Below, in pieces: positions 1 to 32,687 of a stretch of 37,690 bases of DNA. Source of the DNA: a virus; IMG/VR virus record IMGVR_UViG_3300047495_000027, positions 1-37,690 of that record; one strand, written 5' to 3'. Under the pieces are notes generated by a model. That model saw only the letters and a program-made list of their open reading frames with translations. It did no database searches and was not told the origin of the DNA. The translations under genes were made by a program, and so were the position numbers. Positions within the stretch are counted from its first letter, which is position 1; the number at the start of each line of letters is the position of its first letter.

Positions 1-127
1 GCAGATCAAAGTCGTTGGCGATGGTAAGATTTTTGACGATGTACGGGCTGTGATCAAGCAATGCGCGGACGTGTTGGTTCCCCTGAAAGAGGGAAGGTCG
101 GTAGATAAGACCGCCGCCACCGATGCC
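1..127. repeat. Left copy of 127-bp terminal direct repeat (circular overlap)
   Basis: These 127 bases are identical to the last 127 bases of the window. The length equals a common maximum assembler k-mer, so the repeat is most simply the duplicated overlap of a circular contig and not a biological terminal repeat. The reading frame of the Ala-rich gene continues exactly through the join, which supports circularity. Confidence 0.93.
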
Positions 128-364
128 GCCCGTGCCGCTGCCTATGCCGCCGCCGATGCCGCCGACTATGCCGCCGACTATGCCGCCGATGCCGCCCGCG
201 CCGCCGCTTCTTCCGCCGCCCGCTCCGCCGCTGCCTCCGCCGCTGCCTATGCCGCCGCCGATGCCGCCCGCGCCGCCGCCCGCGCCGCCGCCGCCGATGC
301 CTACACGAAGATGGCGGACAAGTTGCTTAATCTGATCAAAGCCGCGCCGGTGGTGAAGCCATGA
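1..364 (+). CDS. Ala-rich repeat phage protein, C-terminal part (gene wraps the contig end)
   Basis: This is the 3' part of the gene that starts at 37235. Joined across the circle it encodes about 230 residues. The reading frame enters at base 2. The part up to about base 115 has ordinary composition and ends in a motif like CADVLVPL. It is followed by about 60 residues of short Ala-rich repeats (patterns such as AAADAA, DYAAD, ARAAA) coded mainly by GCC, then a short tail (MADKLLNLIKAAP). Many tailed phages carry proteins with this layout: a conserved N-terminal domain followed by an Ala-rich, probably helical repeat. Their function is not known. The stop overlaps the next start as ATGA. The Pro-rich frame over the repeat is a shadow of the GCC tract. 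Confidence 0.85.
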   Translation, partial: QIKVVGDGKIFDDVRAVIKQCADVLVPLKEGRSVDKTAATDAARAAAYAAADAADYAADYAADAARAAASSAARSAAASAAAYAAADAARAAARAAAADAYTKMADKLLNLIKAAPVVKP

Positions 365-1088: not shown

Positions 1089-1528
1089 CCGCTGAAGAAC
1101 ATAAACCAAACCCGTCTGCCTTATGCAACGAGGCTAGTAACATAAATCAGGCGCGGGTAGATAGCGGCCTAAAGGTAATGCTTGAGTTTTGCGGAGATCG
1201 TATGCCAAGCGACCAAGAGCTGGTTGAGCGCATTATTGTCGCCGATCCTGCCACCGCCGAGATCGAGCGGCTTCTAAAGCATCAAGCCGACGTGGCCCAG
1301 CGCGTCGATGCCTTGCATGGGCTGCTTGACAGCATGAACCAGACGAACGCGGCGATGGGCAAGCGGTTGAAAGAGATGGAGGCGCAGCTGGAGGAGATGG
1401 GCCAGAAGCACGGGCGCATCGCGGAACGGTATCTGATTGCGAAAGAGGCTCTACGACATTATGCTAGAAGCCTTGACGGTGATGTTGCCCGTGAAACACT
1501 CAACCGGCTGGATAAAAACGATGGATGA
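1085..1528 (+). CDS. Coiled-coil protein, 147 aa, unknown
   Basis: The start at 1085 (MTAEEHKPNPS) is preferred to the in-frame ATG at 1022 because it overlaps the previous stop as ATGA. The N-terminal third contains MLEFCGDRMPSDQELVERII. Residues ~60-125 are rich in Glu, Lys, Leu and Met in heptad-like order (IERLLKHQADVAQRVDAL, RLKEMEAQLEEMGQK), which predicts a coiled coil. Its role is unknown; such proteins usually form oligomers. Confidence 0.65.
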   Translation: MTAEEHKPNPSALCNEASNINQARVDSGLKVMLEFCGDRMPSDQELVERIIVADPATAEIERLLKHQADVAQRVDALHGLLDSMNQTNAAMGKRLKEMEAQLEEMGQKHGRIAERYLIAKEALRHYARSLDGDVARETLNRLDKNDG

Positions 1529-27291: not shown

Positions 27292-27477
27292 TCAGGCTCC
27301 GTGATAGATGGAAGGGGCGTACCCGGTTAGCATACCGACTAACCACAGAACAGCAATGACGATCAGGACGACGCGCACCACCTGACCAAACGGTGCTGGT
27401 AACGGCAGCAAACTGATCAAATACCAGATCAGGCCAGCGACGATGCAAAAGATTAGGATACTTATCAGGATGGACAT
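27292..27477 (-). CDS. Small two-helix membrane protein, 61 aa
   Basis: CGGAG precedes the start. Almost the whole protein is hydrophobic: ISILIFCIVAGLIWYLISLLPLP and VVRVVLIVIAVLWLVGMLTGY, with the motif LLPLPAPFGQV between them. I recognise this pattern from short phage and prophage membrane proteins of unknown role. Its place in the early leftward operon, away from the lysis genes, argues against a holin. Confidence 0.7.
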   Translation of the reverse strand: MSILISILIFCIVAGLIWYLISLLPLPAPFGQVVRVVLIVIAVLWLVGMLTGYAPSIYHGA

Positions 27478-27491
27478 GAGATGCGCTCCGG

Positions 27492-27932
27492 TTATTTCGA
27501 TAATAATGCGCTATTTCTGACTGGCTGGCAAGTCTTCAAGTATGGCTTGCAAAGAATCCACAGTTTCCTGAAGTTCTTCAAAGTTTCCTGAAGTTCTTCA
27601 ACCTTTTTTTCTAGTTCCTTAATACGCGCCTCTTTCTCGGCAATCGTGTCGATGAAAGGCACAGGATTTTTGGGAAACGCGGCCATTGTTTCACGTGAAA
27701 CATCGGCCTGTGCATTGAGGGAACTTTGCGATTGCCATCCCTGTTTTAAATAACCGAAGTCACGTGGTTCGGTAACGGACGCATGATTATGGCACACATT
27801 ACATTCGCCATAATGCCACGTCGATACGCCTTCACGCGGCTTTTGACCGTACTTTTTGCCACAGTGTTGGCATACCCAACTCGGTTGATGCTGCGTGATA
27901 GTCCGTTTTAGCTGGCGCGGTAAATTAACCAT
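27492..27932 (-). CDS. Zn-ribbon protein with frameshifted C-terminus, 146 aa as read
   Basis: The N-terminal part carries a clear zinc ribbon: WVCQHCGKKYGQKP...STWHYGECNVCHNHASVTEPRDFGYL, a motif of many phage proteins. A coiled coil follows (EKEARIKELEKKVEELQETL). An exact 20-bp tandem duplication (27562-27601) then shifts the frame, so the end reads LKNFRKLWILCKPYLKT... . With one copy the frame would continue as a regular coiled coil (ELQETVDSLQAILEDLPASQK) and stop at 27511. The function of the family is unknown; metal-dependent nucleic-acid or protein binding is likely. It overlaps the gene upstream by 8 bp. Confidence 0.75.
   Translation of the reverse strand: MVNLPRQLKRTITQHQPSWVCQHCGKKYGQKPREGVSTWHYGECNVCHNHASVTEPRDFGYLKQGWQSQSSLNAQADVSRETMAAFPKNPVPFIDTIAEKEARIKELEKKVEELQETLKNFRKLWILCKPYLKTCQPVRNSALLSK
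27562..27601. repeat. Exact 20-bp tandem duplication inside the Zn-ribbon gene
   Basis: AGTTTCCTGAAGTTCTTCAA occurs twice in a row (27562-27581 and 27582-27601). Twenty is not a multiple of three, so the number of copies sets the reading frame of the C-terminus. Confidence 0.9.
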
Positions 27933-31647: not shown

Positions 31648-31998
31648 GTGTCTCAATCTGACTTTGATCTGGATAAGCTTATAAAGCTTTGCGGGATGTT
31701 CGGCTCCGAATTTGAGGGAGAACGCGCCAATGCTGCCATGATGGCAGATAAAATGTTAAAAAAAACCGGCATAAAATGGGAAAATTTGCTTAAAGCCGGT
31801 GATTTTTCTTCTACTCAATCGCATGACTATGCAGATGAATTGAGTGACCGTGAAAAGGTACGTTATATTTATGAAAATGGCGAAGCATTTTTGACAGAAT
31901 GGGAAGAAAATTTCATCGAATCCGTTATAAAACGGACCTATTTTTCCCATAAACAATCGGAAATTATTGATCGCATTTATGAAAAATGTATCGCATGA
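31648..31998 (+). CDS. Phage protein with DUF2786-like start, 116 aa
   Basis: GGGG precedes the GTG start. The N-terminal ~55 residues (DLDKLIKLCGMFGSEFEGERANAAMMADKMLKKTGIKWENLL) match a pattern shared by many phage proteins related to DUF2786. The remaining part is acidic and helical (KVRYIYENGEAFLTEWEENFIESVI). Its place between rusA and the initiator gene suggests a replication or DNA-metabolism helper. Function unknown. Confidence 0.75.
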   Translation: MSQSDFDLDKLIKLCGMFGSEFEGERANAAMMADKMLKKTGIKWENLLKAGDFSSTQSHDYADELSDREKVRYIYENGEAFLTEWEENFIESVIKRTYFSHKQSEIIDRIYEKCIA

Positions 31999-32687
31999 GC
32001 ATCAAGATCATGTCTCAAATCTGGCCCCTAAAAAGCTTGGGATCGTCCGAAAAACTGGTGCTGCTGCGTTTGGCAGATTTTGCCGATGCAGATGGAAAAT
32101 GCTGGCCGTCTATCCGACGCGTTGCAAACGAATGTTCATTGTCCGATCGACAAGTCAGAACCATCATCGGAGAATTAGCCAAAAATGGCTATTTGCAACA
32201 GGAAAGACGGCCAGGAAAGGTAGCAAACTATACCGTGACCCCTGCTGCTGGTTTCAGTACTGAAGTGGTTTCAGTACTGAAATCTGCGACAGTACAGTCC
32301 TGCAATGGTTTCAGTACTAGTACTGAAATTTGCGACATTTCCCCCATACCCCCATATATGGATAACCATCATCTTAACCATCATCAAACCACCACAGGGC
32401 GCGCCAGTCGTTTGAAAGCTGATTTTCAGATGCCCGCAAAATGGGCTGAATGGGCAAAGGGAAAAGGTTTGAATGACGGCCAGATTAAAACCCAGTTCGA
32501 TAAAATCGTCCGCTGGTCTCTGTCATCGCCCAAAGGCATAAAACTTGACTGGTTTGCTACGTGGCAAAACTGGATAGAAAAATATCTCGAAGATCATCCG
32601 ATCAAAAATTCAGCGGCCAAACCGTCTGTGGCCCAACAAATGGCAAACGCGAAAGGATTTGGCAATGCATCCCTATTCAACTCCTAA
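31995..32687 (+). CDS. Replication initiator, lambda O-like (HTH-36), 230 aa
   Basis: The N-terminal ~95 residues form a winged helix (GSSEKLVLLRLADFADADGKCWPSIRRVANECSLSDRQVRTIIGELAKNGYLQQERR), the HTH_36 type found in phage initiators. A variable middle encoded by iteron-like repeats follows, then a C-terminal helical domain (KWAEWAKGKGLNDGQIKTQFDKIVRWSLS...WFATWQNWIEKYL). The start is uncertain (31986, 31995 or 32010); I chose 31995 because it overlaps the previous stop as ATGA. It sits before a DnaB-type helicase, as O sits before P in lambdoids. It overlaps the helicase gene by 23 bp. Confidence 0.82.
   Translation: MSIKIMSQIWPLKSLGSSEKLVLLRLADFADADGKCWPSIRRVANECSLSDRQVRTIIGELAKNGYLQQERRPGKVANYTVTPAAGFSTEVVSVLKSATVQSCNGFSTSTEICDISPIPPYMDNHHLNHHQTTTGRASRLKADFQMPAKWAEWAKGKGLNDGQIKTQFDKIVRWSLSSPKGIKLDWFATWQNWIEKYLEDHPIKNSAAKPSVAQQMANAKGFGNASLFNS
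32252..32337 (+). repeat. Iteron-like repeats, candidate replication origin
   Basis: The palindromic unit TTTCAGTACTGAA occurs at 32252-32264 and 32269-32282, and an expanded form TTTCAGTACTAGTACTGAAA at 32309-32328. The second and third copies continue into the shared sequence AT(C/T)TGCGACA. They lie in the middle of the O-like gene, the position of the lambda ori iterons, so they are the best candidate for the origin. Confidence 0.7.

Follow-up and report, generated by a model that had tools for sequence, protein, structure and literature searches.

A 20-bp tandem duplication that shifts the reading frame near the end of a zinc-ribbon gene on a P22-like phage contig

Introduction

Short frameshifting duplications that arise spontaneously within genes take the form of an exact head-to-tail copy whose length is not a multiple of three, with the ancestral frame persisting downstream. 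In phase-variable contingency loci, which change by slipped-strand mispairing, the copy number of a coding tandem repeat sets the reading frame. The -1 frameshifting site of the Escherichia coli dnaX type consists of an A_AAA_AAG heptamer plus a stem. A fourth point of comparison is provided by the phage zinc-ribbon proteins that carry the motif VTEPRDFGHLK.

Here, we describe a gene for such a zinc-ribbon protein whose 3' part contains a short tandem duplication. The DNA analysed (hereafter, the window) is a 37,690-base virus record from IMG/VR, with no isolate behind the contig as far as we have seen. The contig is P22-like, with head genes for terminase, portal (phrog_156), capsid (phrog_283) and head closure (phrog_578). 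The zinc-ribbon gene belongs to a block of minus-strand genes (about 27.3-29.9 kb), together with those for a Sak4-like recombinase and a weakly SSB-like protein and with small genes of unknown function.

Results

The sequence AGTTTCCTGAAGTTCTTCAA is present twice in the assembled sequence, head to tail and with 100% identity, at positions 27562-27601 near the 3' end of the zinc-ribbon ORF (Table 1). Because the length of the unit is not divisible by three, translation changes frame beyond the first copy, and the displaced frame remains visible in the DNA downstream. This confirms the duplication reported in an initial annotation of the sequence, and the two stop codons, one in each frame, are located where that annotation had placed them. 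Identity extends over exactly 20 bases, so the duplication has no microhomology at its boundaries. A search of the window that allowed up to 3 mismatches detected no further copy of the unit (expectation from shuffled sequences, 0.00), and the window contains no other complete and exact tandem duplication with a unit longer than 12 bp. When the 20-mer was scanned in IMG/VR, the sole other exact match was in one unrelated contig, and a scan with the tail codons likewise gave one. The other exact tandem units in the window are of 12 bp and lie in a GC-rich tandem array with periods of 12 and 33 bp (GCCGCCGCCGAT...), in an open frame at the left end of the contig.

Table 1 Features of the zinc-ribbon gene and other sites in the window.
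Feature	Position	Strand	Description
GC-rich tandem array	113..301		12-bp and 33-bp periods
Second parS-like site	1483..1498		2 mismatches
Next gene	27292..27477	-	61-aa hydrophobic protein, phrog_23151; GGAG upstream of its ATG (start 27477)
Zinc-ribbon ORF	27492..27932	-	146 aa as sequenced; residues 17-66 form the zinc-ribbon domain, followed by a linker, a predicted helix (97-134) and a basic end
Stop codon, frame as sequenced (frame 0)	27492..27494	-	
Stop codon, displaced (single-copy) frame	27511..27513	-	
DNA after the repeat	27514..27561	-	VDSLQAILEDLPASQK in the -1 frame, probably the ancestral coiled-coil end; WILCKPYLKTCQPVRN in frame 0
Second copy	27562..27581	-	Identical, one frame off, reads LKNFRKL
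First copy in reading direction	27582..27601	-	Frame 0 reads (V)EELQET
A_AAA_AAG heptamer	27603..27609	-	In frame at codon 109, shortly before the repeat; UGA would be met two codons after a -1 slip
Exact parS consensus	27687..27702		16-bp palindrome
Conserved ribbon	27735..27884	-	About residues 17-66, CxxCG...WH.G.CxxC....VTEPRDFGYL; ~400 viral-contig matches
ORF with iteron-like repeats	31986..32687		HTH_36, weak DnaD_N
Iteron-like repeats	32249..32337		

In the stretch before the repeat, frame 0 scores clearly as coding (+8.7 bits; the other two frames, -25 and -27) and reads IKELEKKVEELQET, which follows a heptad pattern. After the repeat, the displaced -1 frame has a codon score of +3.5 bits and the actual frame one of -2.9 bits; were the actual frame truly coding, only ~1% of wrong frames would exceed it by this margin of 6.4 bits. 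The displaced frame also keeps the upstream heptads in register, with 4/4 a/d positions filled (V, L, L, L) compared to 1/4 in frame 0. A fit of 4/4 was obtained for 0.07% (shift 2) to 0.7% (shift 1) of the out-of-frame stretches in the genes of this phage, and for 0.05-0.2% when only stretches with equally few hydrophobic residues elsewhere were counted. The two tests, on 16 codons (codon usage) and 11 codons (heptads), are not fully independent and point in the same direction. Given the heptads in register and the better codon score, both internal to this gene, the single-copy frame is probably the ancestral coding frame, in agreement with the coiled-coil end that the initial annotation had read from one copy. 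The duplication is probably recent, because the copies are identical and the displaced frame has not decayed. Separately, a compensating shift through a homopolymer error in the A7 run was considered and rejected, as both other frames hit a stop within ~10 codons of the run.

The ribbon itself is well conserved. Its two CxxC knuckles (C21, C24 and C44, C47) and the residues V53, T54, E55, P56, R57 and D58 directly after the second knuckle are invariant in 33 aligned sequences, and the cysteines suggest zinc binding. Single-sequence and peptide-pattern searches of viral and genome collections returned no relatives of the whole protein. The ribbon was recovered from phages by tblastn at 29-47% identity, and a search with the ribbon alignment yielded 399 viral-contig matches in IMG/VR and a single genome-contig match (a bacterial MAG contig); by a similar pattern, it was confirmed once among 84,980 bacterial and archaeal genomes. 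No significant match in PHROGs is shared by the family, and the best Pfam match, DUF4428 (7.5e-5), was obtained for few members only. A weak match of the window protein to the phrog_95 'integrase' (E 8e-4, 19 bits) was set aside, being common to 0/32 other family members. The VTEPRDFGHLK zinc ribbon represents a common and apparently phage-specific family, unnamed, with neither a PHROG nor a convincing Pfam model.

The tail of the window protein is absent from the best 81 loci of the 399 viral matches. Most of the 82 readable ORFs at these loci stop within ~30 residues of VTEPRDFGHLK, and the few long tails among the relatives (six loci) are different in sequence. As the ribbon relatives mostly end soon after VTEPRDFGHLKxGW, the tail appears to be lineage-specific and is plausibly weakly constrained. 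The initial annotation had suggested comparing the gene in relatives; since these end before the tail begins, they give no evidence for or against the direction of change. The closest phage relatives by Sak4-like recombinase, portal and capsid share 60% protein identity at best. Neither the ribbon gene nor its neighbour was found in 20 records related by capsid, portal or recombinase, which is a weak negative. The searched collections may omit near-identical records, and the absence of close relatives therefore carries little weight.

With regard to the protein product, the sequenced tail is basic, carrying a net charge of +7 in the 29 residues that follow the first copy, and the tail in the other frame has a net charge of -2 over 16 residues. 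The ribbon was modelled confidently by AlphaFold2 with 33 sequences (block pLDDT 91-97), and the two-copy protein was modelled with one long helix at residues 97-134 (block pLDDT 93 at 121-130 and 71 at 131-140). Read in the new frame, the second copy adds a heptad-like turn, LKNFRKL. The model thus predicts that the helix is lengthened by the second copy and then followed by the basic end, rather than simply destroyed. The shifted basic tail proposed in the initial annotation stands with respect to its charge, with the amendment that the helix is first predicted to extend to about residue 134. A PDB fold search with the protein gave no match at E<=0.001. The ribbon part, including the four cysteines and VTEPRD, is untouched by the duplication, and the next gene is overrun by neither stop of the zinc-ribbon ORF.

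The zinc-ribbon ORF also contains, at the border of ribbon and tail, an exact 16-bp palindrome (TGTTTCACGTGAAACA) identical to the bacterial chromosomal parS consensus (PMC10197239); even at 3 mismatches, only 0.15 matches would be expected. A second parS-like site with 2 mismatches (TGTTGCCCGTGAAACA) is located near the left end of the window. No ParB domain was detected in the window proteins scanned, and no such parS site was found in the other 136 loci. Based on the predicted parS, the phage may borrow the ParB of its host. Elsewhere in the window, iteron-like repeats around TTCAGTACTGAA lie inside an ORF that directly precedes the DnaB-like helicase gene, and these look like a lambda-O-type origin inside a replication gene.

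Discussion

We consider a real, recent and near-neutral tandem duplication to be the best explanation, with a probability of roughly 0.6; both the reality of the mutation and its near-neutrality are what we infer from the evidence above. A 20-bp stretch in the 3' part of this small phage zinc-ribbon gene would have been tandemly duplicated recently, and the acidic coiled-coil end that was probably ancestral would have been replaced by a longer, basic one. The change was probably tolerated, since the ribbon domain is intact and the next gene is not overrun, and it may have little effect. A fresh mutation was among the origins listed in the initial annotation, and it is supported by the identical copies, the coiled coil that is still readable and in register in the displaced frame, and the codon usage.

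The strongest alternative is an assembly artefact, in which the true genome is single-copy and an untrimmed overlap printed the 20 bases twice. When a de Bruijn graph is built with k=21, adjoining segments share exactly 20 bases (k-1), and a unit of exactly 20 bp with no boundary microhomology is what would be expected of an overlap error; the displaced frame giving the better protein and the origin of the window as an IMG/VR contig are also consistent with this. However, other viral contigs totalling 316 kb contained no exact tandem duplication of 20 bp, so such an error is uncommon in the collection, and the 37.7 kb of the window hold no second one. Moreover, a tandem repeat of 20 bp is normally resolved by assemblers that finish at a larger k. 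Overall, we regard an artefact as possible but doubtful.

The initial annotation had also raised a slippage switch, with one, two or three copies toggling the end of the protein as in contingency loci. The tandem repeat is pure and lies in coding sequence, its unit is not a multiple of three, and the loss of one copy via 20 bp of homology is mechanistically easy. Nevertheless, there are two copies only and no microhomology that would favour gain from one copy, and a switch is therefore unlikely; moreover, neither the tail nor the repeat, at this or another copy number, was found in any relative, and the ribbon family is mostly tail-less. We thus consider a slippage switch very improbable, and judge in the same way a two-state repeat that would switch a phage accessory protein between an acidic coiled-coil end and a basic one, for instance altering the binding of a partner or of nucleic acid by the zinc-ribbon protein.

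It is just as hard to argue that the two-copy form is the old and normal state with a functional basic end. The confident helix that AlphaFold2 places through the second copy would fit such a state, but the copies are undiverged, and the codon usage and heptad filling after the repeat are poor in the frame as sequenced, with the displaced frame reading as coding. The weakest explanation, programmed -1 frameshifting at the heptamer with a hairpin of the copies as stimulator and a shorter protein ending in ELEKKG, is barely credible: the sole in-frame A_AAA_AAG/A among the listed genes sits here and the two copies can pair in a 6+7-bp stem starting 1 nt after it, but codon-shuffled versions of the gene set would be expected to contain 1.6 of these heptamers, random 20-bp tandem duplications fold equally well or better in 64% of cases, the 111-nt region has a z-score of -0.92, a 1-nt spacer is short for such signals, and the product would be tail-less at either copy number.

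The duplication looks ordinary in kind, either a recent mutation or an assembly error, with no support for a dedicated genetic switch. As a mutation it is of little weight, given that short frameshifting duplications are ordinary and that the conserved domain is spared. It does call for caution, as gene models on metagenomic contigs can carry a shifted end, and the tail is unfit for family building until confirmed by reads. Two by-products may outweigh the duplication, namely the common zinc-ribbon family and the exact parS consensus in this phage, the latter of which seems to us of more interest than the duplication.

Compared with other VTEPRDFGHLK phage zinc-ribbon proteins, the window protein has the same four cysteines, the VTEPRDFG motif and roughly 30-60% ribbon identity, whereas most of those proteins end soon after the ribbon and this one adds a tail of ~75 residues that carries the duplication. 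The E. coli dnaX-type site is matched in its heptamer, its frame, a stem nearby and a stop soon after the slip, but here neither the heptamer nor the stem exceeds chance expectation, and only 1 nt separates them. Like phase-variable contingency loci, the gene contains a coding tandem repeat whose copy number sets the frame; unlike them, it has two copies rather than a multi-repeat tract, and no homologous locus with another copy number was found. The spontaneous short frameshifting duplication is represented here by one assembled contig only, with no single-copy parent found in the searched collections, but the likeness is close: an exact head-to-tail copy within a gene, of a length that is not a multiple of three, with the probable ancestral frame persisting downstream.
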